Assembly (NCBI RefSeq): GCF_013201935.1
Contig: NZ_CP053833.1
Location: forward strand, 2,170,001-2,234,000
DNA: 64,000 nucleotides
Source of the DNA: Arcobacter cloacae
GTDB taxonomy: Bacteria > Campylobacterota > Campylobacteria > Campylobacterales > Arcobacteraceae
Direction: 5' to 3'
A program made the translations under genes and the position numbers. Below, in pieces: positions 6,226-29,103 of this stretch (position 1 is the stretch's first letter; the number at the start of each line of letters is the position of its first letter). The notes below the pieces were generated by a model. It was not told the DNA's origin, made no database searches, and saw nothing but the letters and a program-made list of their open reading frames with translations.

Positions 6226-6975
6226 TTATTGAAATTTATCTATAAAATAATTTGTAAATGCTTCTGAAAAAATTTCCATAGCTAATATCAAAAAAATAAA
6301 TATTAATGCAAATTTCAACTGAAATGTTATAACAAAAGGTGAAAAAGAAGGCATAGATCTAGTACCATATCCATAATAAACATCCATTATAAATCCAATA
6401 AAAAAAAGTGGCAAAGCAAAAGCAAAAGCAAAAGCAAACATTCTTTTTATTTCATCTATTGCTAATTGTATCCCATTATAAGAAAATATATCAAAGCTAC
6501 CTAAATTTATCAATGAAAAACTTTTTACTAATATGACAATCGTCATTTCATACATACCTGTTTGAAAAAACAACATCAATGCTATCCAATAAAGTAGTTT
6601 TGCTATTAATCCCTCTTGAGAACCCGTTGTTGGGTCAAACATCATAGCCATTGATAAAGCAGTTGAATACTCTATAAATTCACCAATTACCTTTACAGCT
6701 GAAAAAATAATATTTATAAACATAGAGGCAACTAAACCTAAAGTTATCTCAGAAATTAAACTAATCAAAAAATTATCTTGATTTATTTCCGAAGATATTG
6801 TAACTAAAGGAAAAACAAAAATTGTAATATAAAAAGCAAAGGCAATTCTAATAGTTGGACTAATTGCAGCATGACCAAATACAGGCATAAAAGCTACAAA
6901 TGCTACGATTCTTGCAAATAAAAGAAGAAACTGATATAAAGTCTCTTCATTAAGTAGTGATAAAAAAGCTTCCAT
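6226..6975 (-). CDS. fliR: Flagellar export gate protein FliR
   Basis: FliR is one subunit of the FliPQR export channel in the inner membrane. The 249-residue product is almost entirely hydrophobic with about six transmembrane segments. Family features are seen: an N-terminal helix followed by RIVAFVAFMPVFG, a central EFIEYSTALSMAMMFDPTTG stretch, and a C terminus ending in FTNYFIDKF. Its start shares one base with the end of fliK and it is 15 bases before flhB, the usual fliR-flhB order. fliP and fliQ are not in this window. Confidence 0.94.
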   Translation of the reverse strand: MEAFLSLLNEETLYQFLLLFARIVAFVAFMPVFGHAAISPTIRIAFAFYITIFVFPLVTISSEINQDNFLISLISEITLGLVASMFINIIFSAVKVIGEFIEYSTALSMAMMFDPTTGSQEGLIAKLLYWIALMLFFQTGMYEMTIVILVKSFSLINLGSFDIFSYNGIQLAIDEIKRMFAFAFAFALPLFFIGFIMDVYYGYGTRSMPSFSPFVITFQLKFALIFIFLILAMEIFSEAFTNYFIDKFQ

Positions 6976-8984
6976 TACATATAGTCTAAAACTTTATCTT
7001 CTCTATCTTTATTTTCCTCTTTTAATTGTAAAACAGACTGTGTATCTATTTGCCCTTCAAATCTATTTTGTTGATTTGAATTACTTTGTCCATTTGAAGA
7101 TTGTTGATTGTTTTGATTTGAAGAAGTAAAATCTAAGTTAAAAATTGTATTTTCATCAAAAGTTTTATTCAACGAGTTTCTTAATACATTTTGATTTTCA
7201 ACTAAAGCCTCTAAAGTTCCACCATTAGATGCATTCATACTAATAGTTAAGGCATTACTATTTTTATCATTTTTCATCAAAATTGCAATACTTCCCAACT
7301 CTAAAGGATTTAAATTAATTCTAAATACAGTAACTGGAGGTCTATAATTTTCATACATTTGTCTAGCAATATCAGACATCATTGTTGACATTTGTTGTTT
7401 TGCTCCAATTATTCTTGATTGAATATTGTAAGATAAAGGTGAATTCACACTTAATTCAACATCTTCTGCTACATTAAGAGTATTTTCAAGTAACGCATTA
7501 CTTGCTTCTATAGATTTCGTTATTAAATGCTTAACATCTTCACTTCTAATACTTTTTTCCATTAACAAACTATCTAAAAGATTTTTTTTATCTAAATTAT
7601 TTAAATCTTGCTTTTTTACTAACTCTAAAGTTTTTAAATCTACATTTTGTTCCACATCAACATCTTGTAGTCCCAACTCTAAAATACTAGCACTTTTTTC
7701 AATATCTGTTAATGAATTTGCATTTTTTAAAATATTTATAGCTTCACTTTTATTTAAAAGAAATTGACTATTCAGCAGATTTTTTTGTCCACCTAAATAT
7801 AAATTAGATAAAAAATCTTTCGATTGTTCTAATTCTGTTTTGATAATAGTCTCATTTTCCAAGATATTTAACATAGGATTTTTACTGTTTTTTTCAATTA
7901 AAATATCCATTAAACTTTTTTTACTATTTATATTTTGATTATCTTGAGAATCAACTACATACTCTTTTGTAATTAAAGGAACTATCTCTTCTTTAGTATC
8001 TATTTTTGTTTCTACTTTTTGTGTTTCTAAATCAACTACACTTGCAACTACTTGTGATTCAATATTCTGTGAAGAATTTTGATTTGAGATTTCTTTATCT
8101 TCATTTGATTTTAATATTTGAATATCTTTTTGTAAATCTTTTGTTATTGTCTCATCTTTTACTTCTATTTTTGCTTCTTGATTATTCTTAATATTTTCAT
8201 CTAAAACTACTTTTTCTAAATCTATTTTTGTATCTTTATTATCTTGTGTAGAAATTACTATTTGTGGTTCTATTTTTATATTTTCTTTTTGTAAATCTTT
8301 TGTTATTGTCTCATCTTTTACTTCTATTTTTGCTTCTTGATTATTCTTAATATTTTCATCTAAAACTACTTTTTCTAAATCTATTTTTGTATCTTTATTA
8401 TCTTGTGTAGAAATTACTATTTGTGGTTCTATTTTTATATTTTCTTTTTGTAAATCTTTTGTTATTGTCTCATCTTTTACTTCTATTTTTGCTTCTTGAT
8501 TATTCTTAATATTTTCATCTAAAACTACTTTTTCTAAATCTATTTTTGTATCTTGATTATCTTGTATAGAAATTACTATTTGTGGTTCTATTTTTATATT
8601 TTCATTATTTTTAGAAGTATCATTTAAAATTTTATTATTTAAAGCTTTATCAAATTTTTGTTCTTTTAGTGTTTCATTTTTTGCTTCAAGAACTAATCTA
8701 TCCAATAACGAGTTATTACTATTTTTTAAATCTATGTTTTCAGTATTTTCAAGTACAACATTATTTGATTGTTCAACTATTAACATATCTTTGTTAATAG
8801 GCTCTTTTTTTACTAAAACATCCTGTTTTAACGTAGTTTGTTCTTCTTTTTCTGTTCCCATACTATCTTTTAATAAAGAATCAAATAAAGAAGGGGAATC
8901 TTTTGTTACTTCTTTATCAGAAACTAGAGAAACTTCATTAGTTGAAGAGCTATTTTTTGAGATTACATCTATTGGATTTGCCAT
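6975..8984 (-). CDS. fliK: Flagellar hook-length control protein FliK, with internal tandem repeats
   Basis: FliK is secreted during hook assembly and acts as a ruler that tells FlhB when the hook is long enough. The 669-residue product is long for the family. Its N-terminal two thirds is low-complexity and rich in Asn, Lys and Glu. The C-terminal part holds the Flg_hook domain (about residues 530-630), recognisable from VFRINLNPLELGSIAI and the LNPLELG core, followed by a Gln/Asn/Ser-rich tail. Residues 127-285 are three almost identical 53-residue repeats. Assignment rests on the C-terminal domain plus its place between flgC and fliR. Confidence 0.88.
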   Translation of the reverse strand: MANPIDVISKNSSSTNEVSLVSDKEVTKDSPSLFDSLLKDSMGTEKEEQTTLKQDVLVKKEPINKDMLIVEQSNNVVLENTENIDLKNSNNSLLDRLVLEAKNETLKEQKFDKALNNKILNDTSKNNENIKIEPQIVISIQDNQDTKIDLEKVVLDENIKNNQEAKIEVKDETITKDLQKENIKIEPQIVISTQDNKDTKIDLEKVVLDENIKNNQEAKIEVKDETITKDLQKENIKIEPQIVISTQDNKDTKIDLEKVVLDENIKNNQEAKIEVKDETITKDLQKDIQILKSNEDKEISNQNSSQNIESQVVASVVDLETQKVETKIDTKEEIVPLITKEYVVDSQDNQNINSKKSLMDILIEKNSKNPMLNILENETIIKTELEQSKDFLSNLYLGGQKNLLNSQFLLNKSEAINILKNANSLTDIEKSASILELGLQDVDVEQNVDLKTLELVKKQDLNNLDKKNLLDSLLMEKSIRSEDVKHLITKSIEASNALLENTLNVAEDVELSVNSPLSYNIQSRIIGAKQQMSTMMSDIARQMYENYRPPVTVFRINLNPLELGSIAILMKNDKNSNALTISMNASNGGTLEALVENQNVLRNSLNKTFDENTIFNLDFTSSNQNNQQSSNGQSNSNQQNRFEGQIDTQSVLQLKEENKDREDKVLDYM
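8131..8607 (-). repeat. Three tandem 159-bp in-frame repeats inside fliK
   Basis: The 10-mer tgtaaatctt recurs at 8131, 8290 and 8449, exactly 159 bases apart, and the intervening sequence is nearly identical between copies. Each unit encodes 53 residues (starting [NK]ENIKIEPQ and ending TITKDLQ), so gain or loss of a unit keeps the reading frame. The copy closest to the start codon carries the few visible differences (for example SIQDNQD where the others have STQDNKD). Near-identity at DNA level means the array is young or kept uniform by recombination. Confidence 0.95.
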
Positions 8985-10178: not shown

Positions 10179-10997
10179 TTAATGAATATTAACTAAAATT
10201 CTATCAACAATATTTTGCAACTGTTTTGTTATTTCATCAGAAGAAAACTCTTTCACAAACAATTTTCTTAAACGTCCAGTTGTTGAAATTGTTTCAGAAG
10301 TTGAAATATTGCCTATATATTCTACCATAAAATCTTCTTTTAACCTATTTTTTTTTCCTAAATTTACTAAAGAATTACTTATAGTTTCTCCTATTTGATA
10401 ACTTTTAGTATGATTGAAAGTTAACATTAATTTACTTTTTTCAATTGATAACATCTTAATTAAAGAATAAACATCAGTTAATGCACTTGGATCTGTTGTT
10501 GTAACAGCTAATATATTATCAGAAATAGATAAAAACTCTTTAACATAATCATTTAGTCCAGCACCTGTATCTATCAATAATATATCAAATCTATTTAATG
10601 AAACTATCTCTTTTACAACCCTTGAAAAAATAAAACTATTTTTATTTAAAGTATATTGAAAACCACTCTTTCCTGCTATCAAAGATATATTTGAATAATT
10701 AGTTTTTGTTATTACCTCATCTAAAGTTCTAGTTCCATCTATATATTCAAAAAAGCTATTTTGAGGTTTTATATCAAACAAAACTTGCATATTAGCAAGT
10801 CCAATATCTGCATCTAAAACAGCTACATTAAAACCCCTTTTAGAGAGTAAAAATGCAATATTTGCAGTCATTGTTGATTTACCAACCCCACCTTTTCCAG
10901 ATGTTATAGTTAAAGTTTTGGTTTTAGAATAGTTTTTTTTTACAGAACTAGTCAATTTTACTAGCTTACTAGCTTGGGAAGAAATAGAGTTAAACAA
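10179..10997 (-). CDS. flhG: Flagellar number regulator FlhG (MinD-like ATPase)
   Basis: FlhG/FleN is a MinD/ParA-family ATPase that limits flagellar number and stimulates the GTPase FlhF. The 272-residue product has the deviant Walker A motif SGKGGVGKST (about 33-42), then a switch region NVAVLDADIGLANMQVLF and DILLIDTGAGLN. The N-terminal QASKLVKLTS (residues 8-17) resembles the DQAxxLR helix that in other FlhG proteins activates FlhF. It follows flhF with a 2-base gap; the flhF-flhG pair is the rule in polar flagellates. Unlike plasmid ParA it has no partner parB nearby. Confidence 0.92.
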   Translation of the reverse strand: MFNSISSQASKLVKLTSSVKKNYSKTKTLTITSGKGGVGKSTMTANIAFLLSKRGFNVAVLDADIGLANMQVLFDIKPQNSFFEYIDGTRTLDEVITKTNYSNISLIAGKSGFQYTLNKNSFIFSRVVKEIVSLNRFDILLIDTGAGLNDYVKEFLSISDNILAVTTTDPSALTDVYSLIKMLSIEKSKLMLTFNHTKSYQIGETISNSLVNLGKKNRLKEDFMVEYIGNISTSETISTTGRLRKLFVKEFSSDEITKQLQNIVDRILVNIH

Positions 10998-10999
10998 AA

Positions 11000-12151
11000 C
11001 TATCTCCTAACACATTGGTTATTCATAAAACAATCAATTAAAAAAGAAGAATCCGAAACAATCAAATCATCTGGAACATTTTGACCTATAGAAAAATAAG
11101 TAATAGATTTTTTTGTTTTATGAGCAAATGATATTAAATTTCCAAAACTTTTTGTCTCATCTAATTTTGTAAATGTTAAATAATCTATTGACAATCTTGA
11201 ATAGTTTTTATAAATCTCAAGCAAATCACTATGTTTAACATTTGCGGGAAGCACTAATATTTTCTCAATAGGTAGCTCCTCAACTTTTTTTTGATACTCA
11301 TTTATAAGTTCTATTTTATCAATATCATATTGACTTGAACCTGCTGTATCAATAAAAATATAATTACAATCTTTTAATCTCAAAAGTGCTTCTGCTAAAC
11401 CTTCAGGCTTTTTTACAATTTCCAAAGGCAATCTCATTATATTTGTATAAGCTTGTAATTGCTCAATTGCCCCTACTCTAAAAGAATCTAAAGTTACAAT
11501 ACCAACCTTATAATTTTGACCCAATTTATAAGCATATCTTGCAGCAAGTTTAGAAATAGTTGTAGTTTTTCCAACACCTGTTGGACCTACCATCATTATA
11601 ATTTTTCTTTGATGTTTTCTTAAAGGAACTTCATGTTTTATTGGAATTACTCTTCTTAAAATCAATTTAAAAAAATCATTTACTTTTTTTGGATTTGCTT
11701 TTAAAGCAATTGGTAGTTGCTTTATTGTTTTTTTCATAATTGTATAAGTCATCTCTTGATCAAACTCATTTTGTTCAAAAATATTATACATCGAAGCAAA
11801 TTCAGGAGGAATAGTTAAATCATATAATTGACTTTTAGGATTCCAAATTGATTTTTGAACCTGTTCTAAAACACTTTGCATTTTAAGAATTTCTTCTTTA
11901 AAATCATATACTTGAGTTTTCATAGGTTCAACATTTTGAGAAGCTTTACTAATTGCAGTTTTTGTATATATTAAATTCTTTTTTTTATCCTCTTCTTCAA
12001 CGGCAACTACAACTTCATACATATCTTTTGTATTACCTTTTGCAGTTGATATTTTTTTAGTTGATATAACAATTGCATCTTCACCACACTCTTCTTGTGC
12101 TAATCTTAATGCAACAGATGGAGTTTCTCCAAAAAAAGATAGTACATTCAT
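11000..12151 (-). CDS. flhF: Flagellar placement GTPase FlhF
   Basis: FlhF is an SRP-type GTPase that recruits early flagellar components to the pole. The 383-residue product has an N-terminal B domain, an N-domain helical bundle, and a G domain with GPTGVGKTTT (residues 189-198), DTAGSSQYD (about 268-276) and TKLDE (328-332). Together these separate it from Ffh (encoded at 32.5 kb), which has an M domain that this protein lacks. It overlaps the upstream flgA-like gene by 4 bases and is followed immediately by flhG. Confidence 0.95.
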   Translation of the reverse strand: MNVLSFFGETPSVALRLAQEECGEDAIVISTKKISTAKGNTKDMYEVVVAVEEEDKKKNLIYTKTAISKASQNVEPMKTQVYDFKEEILKMQSVLEQVQKSIWNPKSQLYDLTIPPEFASMYNIFEQNEFDQEMTYTIMKKTIKQLPIALKANPKKVNDFFKLILRRVIPIKHEVPLRKHQRKIIMMVGPTGVGKTTTISKLAARYAYKLGQNYKVGIVTLDSFRVGAIEQLQAYTNIMRLPLEIVKKPEGLAEALLRLKDCNYIFIDTAGSSQYDIDKIELINEYQKKVEELPIEKILVLPANVKHSDLLEIYKNYSRLSIDYLTFTKLDETKSFGNLISFAHKTKKSITYFSIGQNVPDDLIVSDSSFLIDCFMNNQCVRR

Positions 12152-27730: not shown

Positions 27731-28672
27731 TTATTTATTGTTTGAAAATTCTGCTATTAATTTATCTAAGTCATCACCTATTAAATCATCTGTATCATCT
27801 CCATGAATATGCCTAGCAACAGCTATATCTTTTGCTCCACTATCATCTTCAAATAAGTTATTTAAATATAAAGATAATTTTCTAATAACAGACATAACTC
27901 TTTCGATTTTTTGTCTATTTATATCATTAAATTGCATTAATTCCATTGCTTGAAAAATTTGATTATCTTCTGCTTGTAATAAATCTTTTAAACCACTTAA
28001 AGAATTACTTATTAATTTTACTGAAGATAAATGTTCATCAAACACTTTAATATTTGGGAACTTGTTGTTCAATGATAAAAGTAAATTCGATTGTGAATTT
28101 AGAAATTTTTCATAATCTTTCAAAAATCTTCTAAGTTCGTTATTATTATCTAGTGTTAAGCTTAAAACATCAAAAATTTGTGAAACTTTTTCTTCAGAAT
28201 CATTAGCTACTTGAGTTAATTGATTTACAACTTTTGTATCTTTCTCAGCTGGTAAAGGGAAAACTCCTTCGTTTATCTTTGAAGAAGTCCAATCTTTTAC
28301 AATATCATCTTCGCTTCTAGTAACTGAATTATTTTTTTGAACAGTCTCTTCCAATTGTTTTGGTTGAACCTCTTCATCTTTTTCTACTTCTTGTAATGAA
28401 GCTGAAGATTCTATATCTTTTAACAATTCATCTATTTCAGTACTATCAACTATTTCCTTTTGACTATCACTTTCTATACCAAAACTTTCTAAATCAAACA
28501 CTTCTTCTTTTGAATTTATCTCTTCTTTTACTTCTTCTGTTTGAGATAATAGTTCTTCTATCTCTTTTGTATTAACTTTAGCTGTTTCTACTACTTCTTC
28601 TGGTTCGTTAGTATCATCTGATATCTCTAAACCATTCATCAAAGCTTCAATTTCTTCTTGACTCATACTCAT
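27731..28672 (-). CDS. CheZ-like phosphatase with FliM-type CheY-docking peptides
   Basis: A 313-residue protein with an unusual layout. Residues 3-15 (MSQEEIEALMNGL) match the N-terminal CheY-binding peptide of FliM (SQxEIDALLNG). Similar short motifs recur at about 34-44 (NTKEIEELLSQ) and 77-87 (STEIDELLKDI) within a long acidic, probably disordered segment (16-135). Residues 145-275 are helical; QFNDINRQKIERVM carries D250 and Q254 in the D-x3-Q spacing of the CheZ active site. The C terminus (DDLDKLIAEF, 300-309) resembles the CheZ tail that binds CheY. Role inferred: dephosphorylating CheY-P, perhaps while docked at or mimicking the switch. It follows cheY by 14 bases (from 28687). A bare FliM is ruled out by the lack of FliM_M and SpoA domains. 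Confidence 0.72.
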   Translation of the reverse strand: MSMSQEEIEALMNGLEISDDTNEPEEVVETAKVNTKEIEELLSQTEEVKEEINSKEEVFDLESFGIESDSQKEIVDSTEIDELLKDIESSASLQEVEKDEEVQPKQLEETVQKNNSVTRSEDDIVKDWTSSKINEGVFPLPAEKDTKVVNQLTQVANDSEEKVSQIFDVLSLTLDNNNELRRFLKDYEKFLNSQSNLLLSLNNKFPNIKVFDEHLSSVKLISNSLSGLKDLLQAEDNQIFQAMELMQFNDINRQKIERVMSVIRKLSLYLNNLFEDDSGAKDIAVARHIHGDDTDDLIGDDLDKLIAEFSNNK

Positions 28673-28686
28673 GATAAGACCTTATA

Positions 28687-29058
28687 TTATTTTTTCAATA
28701 CTCCATCAAGCTTCTCTTTTAAAACTTCAGCATTAAAAGGTTTAACAATGTAGTTATTTACTCCTGCTTTTAAAGCAGCAATTACTTCACTTTTCCCACC
28801 CTCAGTTGTAATCATAATGATAGGTGTTTTTTGATGAGTACCTTCAGATCTGATTTTCTTTACTAATTCCAAACCATTCATGTTTGGCATATTCCAATCA
28901 GTTAAAATAACATCATAATGTGCTTCACTAAGAAGTTTCCAAGCTTTTAAACCATCTTCAGCTTCATCAAAATCTTCTTTAGAGAATCCTAACTGCATAA
29001 CTACATTTCCAATAATTCTTCTCATTGTAGAACTATCATCCACTATTAGAATTTTCAT
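28687..29058 (-). CDS. cheY: Chemotaxis response regulator CheY
   Basis: CheY carries the phosphoryl signal from CheA to the flagellar switch. The product is a stand-alone 123-residue receiver domain: acidic pair D7/D8 (LIVDDSS), phospho-acceptor D54 (ILTDWNMPNMNG), T84/T85 (IMITTE), aromatic switch Y103 and K106 (NNYIVKPF). The ATG at 29058 is preferred over TTG codons two codons upstream because GGGA lies 7 bases before it. It leads the operon into the CheZ-like gene, so the kinase signal and its removal are co-transcribed with rod and MS-ring genes. Confidence 0.95.
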   Translation of the reverse strand: MKILIVDDSSTMRRIIGNVVMQLGFSKEDFDEAEDGLKAWKLLSEAHYDVILTDWNMPNMNGLELVKKIRSEGTHQKTPIIMITTEGGKSEVIAALKAGVNNYIVKPFNAEVLKEKLDGVLKK

Positions 29059-29103
29059 CAACAATCCCTTTGTAATTAAATAAATATTTTCAATAAATTA
29101 TGC

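Follow-up and report, generated by a model that had tools for sequence, protein, structure and literature searches.

A FliM-type peptide at the N-terminus of CheZ across Campylobacterota and its candidate role in CheY docking

Does a CheZ-type phosphatase of Arcobacter cloacae carry the peptide with which the flagellar switch protein FliM binds CheY, and is this the peculiarity of one protein or a property of its family? The question is raised by cheZ, which is read from 28672 to 27731 on the minus strand, within a flagellar locus of the window (the whole 64,000-nt stretch analyzed, C1:2170001-2234000 of a 2.81-Mb genome). Its product begins with MSMSQEEIEALMNGL, and its parts and the neighboring gene are as follows.

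27731..28672, minus strand: cheZ, a remote, Helicobacter-type CheZ of 313 aa by its NF041271 match
28628..28663, minus strand: N-terminal FliM-type peptide SQEEIEALMNGL, residues 4-15 (profile score, alignment, AlphaFold helix)
28535..28570, minus strand: internal copy 2, TKEIEELLSQTE, residues 35-46 (profile score, alignment)
28409..28444, minus strand: internal copy 3, STEIDELLKDIE, residues 77-88 (profile score, alignment)
27848..28243, minus strand: CheZ-type catalytic core, a predicted long helical hairpin, residues 144-275 (AlphaFold)
27911..27925, minus strand: active-site motif D250-x3-Q254 (alignment)
27743..27778, minus strand: C-terminal tail GDDLDKLIAEFS, residues 299-310, the counterpart of CheZ's CheY-binding tail (alignment, AlphaFold)
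28687..29064, minus strand: cheY (CheYz type), the upstream partner of cheZ

An earlier sequence-only reading had placed cheZ directly after cheY, naming no strand, and the two genes are indeed separated by 14 bp on the minus strand, with cheY (29064..28687) directly upstream. For cheY, homology begins from the ATG at 29058, so the listed TTG probably lies two codons too far upstream. The same reading had quoted a FliM-like peptide as the first 15 residues of CheZ; the peptide is present at the N-terminus, but it spans residues 3-15. Its two further copies of [ST]xEI[ED]xLL were located exactly, at residues 35-42 (TKEIEELL) and 77-84 (STEIDELL), as was the CheZ-type tail DDLDKLIAEF, at residues 300-309, and the positions of D250 and Q254 are exact.

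The identity of the protein as a CheZ, also proposed at that stage, is borne out by homology. In particular, the Phos_CheZ model NF041271 matches residues 91-310 (220 residues; E = 6.1e-34, 117.6 bits). The model's curated cut-off is 350 bits, which only 26 of 347 genomes of the phylum exceed; since the window protein scores below it, we class it as a homologue and not as that equivalog. Neither D250 nor Q254 varies among the 131 aligned proteins, comprising 61 Arcobacteraceae and 70 other Campylobacterota CheZ; one protein at a contig end (L077) was left out, giving 61 Arcobacteraceae rather than 62, and 63 Arcobacteraceae loci fetched later lie outside this alignment and outside the internal-copy and cheY-neighbor counts below. 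The C-terminal tail (299-310) has a conservation of 0.82 in Arcobacteraceae, where D301, L305 and I306 are invariant in 61 of 61, and of 0.96 in 28 genus-like sequences.

An AlphaFold model (46-sequence alignment, mean pLDDT 70.8, pTM 0.41) predicts hairpin helices at 144-204 and 210-275, mostly with pLDDT above 90, and a C-terminal helix at 299-310; the D-x3-Q motif sits on the second hairpin helix. The peptides are covered by predicted helices 5-12, 35-54 and 77-92, the linkers between them have pLDDT below 50, and the first ten residues have a mean pLDDT of 81. E. coli CheZ has a long helical hairpin, the D-x3-Q motif and a C-terminal CheY-binding tail, and the window protein, with a predicted hairpin, the same motif and a tail of that type, resembles it (1KMI) in these; unlike E. 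coli CheZ, its sequence is too remote for Pfam and for a phmmer search of the PDB. The Pfam search returned 0 families at E up to 1, leaving the proteobacterial CheZ family unmatched, and the phmmer search matched only two designed TIM barrels and a "CAP repeat" chain. Foldseek found nothing at E ≤ 0.001 with the predicted model, whose long helical hairpin is an uninformative query; 1kmi_Z was at rank 8 (E = 1.5, TM 0.23/0.33), and the 50 rows of the VIA fold list contained generic coiled coils and helical hairpins, 1KMI being absent. The resemblance to H. pylori CheZ (HP0170 type) is closer in sequence, including the NF041271 homology over residues 91-310, the D-x3-Q motif and a tail that reads [DE]DIEALIASFG there. 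Moreover, the closest NF041271 matches among the genomes searched (L078-L091) begin with MTQEELDALM[NS]GG, the same N-terminal motif as in the window protein. The window protein is thus, by homology, a remote, Helicobacter-type CheZ and a putative CheY-P phosphatase.

The N-terminal peptide stands far outside chance. Scored with a 9-column profile built from the FliM proteins of the phylum, it reaches 18.4, a value that none of 20,000 shuffled versions of residues 1-130 attained. It is also specific within genomes. Searched at the DNA level with a strict pattern for [ST]Q[DE][DE]x[DE]xL, the own genome has 4 places, with 0 and 0 for the reversed control; two of these places are N-terminal, in FliM and CheZ only, and the other two are internal in other proteins. 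Ten other genomes contain 36 strict-pattern places, of which all but one (G085:C12) were assigned, another (G327:C1:2209787) being called CheZ from its place in the profile-match list. Counting only places no further than residue 11 of an open reading frame, the pattern opens FliM in 10 of 10 of these genomes and CheZ in all 9 of the 9 that have a CheZ; the remaining N-terminal places belong to a short CheZ paralogue and to a 454-aa ORF (residue 11). It had been argued in addition that no fliM lies in the window. The one FliM found in the genome, the only match of a PF02154 search (C1:330679-331254; own motif MAEFLSQDEIDALL), does lie outside, but the argument carries no weight, because a normal FliM encoded elsewhere makes the absence of fliM from the window uninformative.

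Conservation of the peptide among orthologues had been named as a check, and the protein passes it: the FliM-like N-terminal peptide is kept in 93 of 95 Arcobacteraceae genomes. A CheZ match is found in 95 of 104 Arcobacteraceae genomes (9 of 104 are without one), and in 93 of these 95 the protein opens with SQ[ED][ED]IE[AS]LM or TQEEIEALM (30 plus 63 genomes); the exceptions are L234, a degenerate CheZ that reads TQKEIEALI, and L235, a motif-free 92-aa fragment. A first set of 30 best-scoring loci and 46 pattern-found loci, the named relatives among the latter being mostly Arcobacter, Aliarcobacter and their kin, had yielded the motif in 62 of 62 distinct proteins, a count that is biased because MSMSQEEI was among the six search patterns for the 46 loci; the remaining genomes were therefore fetched, giving the 93 of 95. 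Three of the 63 later CheZ start with MGMSQEDIEALM, so that they read MGMSQ instead of MSMSQ and were missed by a stricter regular expression. Among 28 genus-like sequences, the conservation of the N-terminal peptide is 0.96.

The motif extends well beyond Arcobacteraceae. A strict motif test is passed by 68 of 70 CheZ chosen from other Campylobacterota (30 best-scoring loci and 40 hand-chosen regions among the matches listed), with TQAELDALM and TQEELNELI as the failures, a proportion that favors intact proteins because in all 70 the match to the family profile begins at position 1. Of five CheZ that do not match from position 1, among the matches listed, four pass and the fifth reads TQDELDSMM. 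Nearly all sampled N-termini in these families are TQEELDAL[MLI] or close variants. Further, 15 relatives, taken mostly from the weakest matches and from beyond those listed, were inspected by eye, and 9 keep [STNP]Q[EK]E[ILF][DE]xL[LMI]; the motif is missing in L232, L233, L235, L236, L237 and L238. All 50 FliM N-termini compared from the phylum contain [ST]Q[ED]EIDxLL, and the CheZ consensus follows that of FliM residue by residue, with a common motif of [ST]Q[ED]E[IL][DE]AL[LM]. Unlike FliM, CheZ has I or L at the fifth position and M, L or I at the last, and the window protein has no Pfam match to the FliM middle domain or to the SPOA domain. By these comparisons, a FliM-type motif at the N-terminus marks CheZ throughout the phylum Campylobacterota.

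The internal copies have a narrower distribution. With the FliM profile of the phylum they score 9.0 and 6.9, and the better of the two is reached by 3.4% of shuffles of residues 16-130; two copies are obtained in 2.0% of these shuffles at a score of at least 6, in 6.5% at 5 and in 16.7% at 4. Within the window protein alone, the internal copies are thus borderline against chance. In the 28 genus-like sequences, residues 33-46 (copy 2) are conserved at 0.89 and residues 75-88 (copy 3) at 0.68, and other arm segments at 0.19-0.52. What makes the internal copies convincing is their enrichment over shuffles across the family. A profile trained on FliM plus CheZ (threshold 6) finds 28 internal matches in 28 Arcobacteraceae representatives (less than 65% identity), compared to 2.4 ± 1.5 (maximum 7) in 300 composition-preserving shuffles. 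The matches are spread over 14 of the 28 representatives; L069 has five and L075 four. In the window protein, copy 3 is counted and copy 2 falls below the threshold; because of this, and because 14 of the 28 representatives have no internal match, we regard the array as variable.

The same profile and threshold found no internal copy in 22 representatives of other Campylobacterota families. The arm itself measures 96-252 residues in 61 Arcobacteraceae versus 50-81 in 70 others, so that the Arcobacteraceae protein differs from Helicobacter-type CheZ in a longer arm with up to five internal copies. The peptide array had been put forward as an oddity of this protein; the N-terminal copy is common to nearly all sampled Campylobacterota CheZ, and only the internal array was seen in Arcobacteraceae alone. 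On the sequences compared, the internal copies represent an expansion within Arcobacteraceae. Array size as a simple function of CheY number was considered and not adopted, given the 22 other-family representatives without an internal copy.

These results bear on a quite different account, in which the N-terminal helix has a structural or regulatory role in CheZ, for example by packing against the hairpin, and the copies inside the arm arise by chance from its acidic, low-complexity composition. The arm is indeed rich in E, D and S, the window protein alone leaves its internal copies at the border of chance, and deletion of the N-terminus of H. pylori CheZ, whose function was described as unknown in 2024, left phosphatase function unaffected (passages of PMC11237671). 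The shuffles preserve composition and still yield less than a tenth of the observed internal matches, and a second acidic set, the 12 ChePep-like ORFs discussed below, shows little of the motif, its best score being reached by more than 5% of shuffles in 10 of the 12 (the exceptions, L290 and L294, are below 5%). Together with the agreement of the CheZ consensus with FliM at each residue, they make this account very unlikely. The H. pylori deletion does imply that docking by the N-terminus is not essential for catalysis there, and the peptide may then act in capturing scarce CheY-P, in competing with the motor, or in localization.

Degenerate relatives and a short paralogue show how far peptide and catalytic pair go together. 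Among the 15 mostly weak relatives, the N-terminal motif is kept despite a damaged catalytic pair in L229 (Q to K), L230 (both residues), L231 (D to K, with Q still in its column) and L234 (both residues); the C-terminal tail is kept in L229-L231 and missing in L234. In L232, L233, L236 and L237, the catalytic pair and the N-terminal motif are both lost. A second, short CheZ-like gene of about 110-163 aa occurs in many Arcobacteraceae (L212-L223, for example L214:3998-4483 and L219:3980-4345), and in 12 fetched loci, a sample of the secondary CheZ-profile matches, D-x3-Q is present in 12 of 12 and the N-terminal FliM-type motif in 4 of 12. From these patterns of loss, the docking peptide and catalysis are separable. 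Judging names by the look of the sequences, the short gene lies mostly between truD-like and ruvA/ddl-like genes (L216 is elsewhere), often beside a chemoreceptor-like gene. The own genome, searched with the CheZ profile, gave one match only.

The anatomy, conservation and specificity of the peptides are matters of observation; what they bind is a separate question. The N-terminal helix of FliM and the C-terminal helix of CheZ bind the same face of activated CheY in E. coli (e.g. 1F4V, 2FMF). We favor, with a probability of roughly 0.58, the reading that these peptides are FliM-mimicking CheY-docking tethers on a CheZ-type CheY-P phosphatase, situated at the N-terminus and, in Arcobacteraceae, along a disordered arm, in addition to the C-terminal tail. 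The neighboring gene fits such a partner. Of 75 loci, 74 have a CheY-type sequence (DWNMP) in the 600 bp preceding cheZ. The closest solved structure to the window's CheY is 3gwg (E = 2.4e-45), which we take to be H. pylori CheY1, with close similarity over TTEGGK..VNNYIVKPF..VLKEKL.

FliM has a second partner that the peptide could mimic it for. By contacting FlhG, a MinD-like ATPase, instead of or besides CheY, the N-terminal peptide would tie CheZ to polar flagellar assembly. FlhG contacts FliM/N via the N-terminus of FliM (passages of PMC12826062), and the window encodes an FlhG-like ATPase (10179-10997, named by its position and sequence look) together with FlhF (11000-12151); of 15 genomes tried with the FlhF model, 14 have a match above the cut-off, and the same model matches all 14 control genomes, 2 of them over the cut-off. 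We nevertheless consider this partner unlikely and favor CheY as the shared one, because CheZ is the phosphatase of CheY, its gene has a CheY-type neighbor in nearly every locus, and its C-terminal tail is a peptide of the same kind.

Two side observations concern the window and its genome. At 6975-8984, a large acidic ORF, FliK-like by its position and look, contains near-identical tandem units with KIEPQIVISTQDNKDTKIDLEKVVLDENIKNNQEAKIEVKDETITKDLQ. In the own genome, eight places of identical score lie in 280-aa open frames (e.g. C1:85558-85965), which suggests a multicopy mobile-element ATPase.

A further possibility is that the peptide docks a receiver-like domain other than that of CheYz, such as ChePep, CheV, the receiver domain of CheA or one of the extra CheYs, and so serves localization or scaffolding. 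In all 12 genomes inspected, among them Arcobacteraceae, gmk is immediately preceded by an acidic ChePep-like ORF, and from this gene order we take it to be ChePep; a search for ChePep by way of the Pfam receiver domain in one Helicobacter-type genome left it unrecognized among 10 matches. Counting against this possibility, a 2015 H. pylori study reportedly placed the polar localization motif of CheZ in the central domain and not in the N-terminus. The ChePep-like gene comprises open frames of 258-337 aa in Arcobacteraceae (5 of 5) versus 446-497 aa elsewhere (7 of 7, some cut by the end of the locus), a length trend that is the reverse of that of the CheZ arm (gmk neighbors in L288-L299, e.g. 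L291:635-1477). The literature contributes to both sides. Polar localization of H. pylori CheZ needs ChePep (passages of PMC7750401 and PMC11237671), and an Arcobacter genome has five CheYs; among these, however, only CheYz keeps W58, K91 and K119 for FliM binding, and it retains the Y106-T84 pair as well (passages of PMC9321776). Taken together, docking to another receiver-like domain appears improbable. The same source argues that cheYZ survive from a lost F3 system and that an acquired F7 system now drives them (PMC9321776), an account that, with the residues kept by CheYz, fits CheYz as the partner of the peptide.

A CheY-P hydrolase paired with such a peptide has a precedent. EIDAL in FliM is the CheY-binding motif (passages of PMC6946799), and B. 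subtilis FliY, a CheY-P hydrolase, contains an EIDAL motif of the FliM type (passages of PMC12826062 and PMC6946799). Because FliY has both, the combination of function and peptide was already known; its presence in CheZ, its near-invariance across the phylum and the repeat array appear to be new among the papers covered. FliY has a CheC-like catalytic part and a SPOA domain and is located in the C-ring, unlike the window CheZ, which is without a Pfam match; the parallel between the two proteins would be convergent, by apparently independent evolution. A literature search on the motif letters gave no match, and no FliM-like motif in CheZ was found in the titles, opening parts of abstracts and passages covered; the first H. 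pylori reports on CheZ-ChePep and on ChePep may remark on one.

If the peptides are CheY tethers, each would form a short amphipathic helix that packs against the alpha4-beta5-alpha5 face of CheY-P in the manner of the FliM N-terminus. A CheZ dimer with the arm of the window protein could then present as many as eight tethers (two at the N-termini, two at the C-termini and four in the arms), which would surround its two D250/Q254 active sites and gather CheY-P near the catalytic hairpin. The tethers would also vie with FliM for the same face of CheY-P, and CheY-P may be pulled off the motor and then passed to the phosphatase. A broader proposal, which we hold only tentatively and think rather doubtful, is that CheZ of Campylobacterota acts as a two-ended CheY-P trap that strips FliM and is multivalent in Arcobacteraceae, where the array would have grown in a lineage that had its F3 kinase core lost and its motor CheY put under a laterally acquired F7 system.

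For the family at large, the near-invariant FliM-type peptide suggests a binding partner for the N-terminus of H. pylori CheZ. If the favored reading is true, a signal-terminating phosphatase shares a short linear motif with the motor that it silences, and its docking valency would be tunable between relatives by the number of repeats. Overall, proteins with one N-terminal copy, with up to five internal copies and with degenerate cores that keep the peptide would constitute a natural series in which avidity may be studied.
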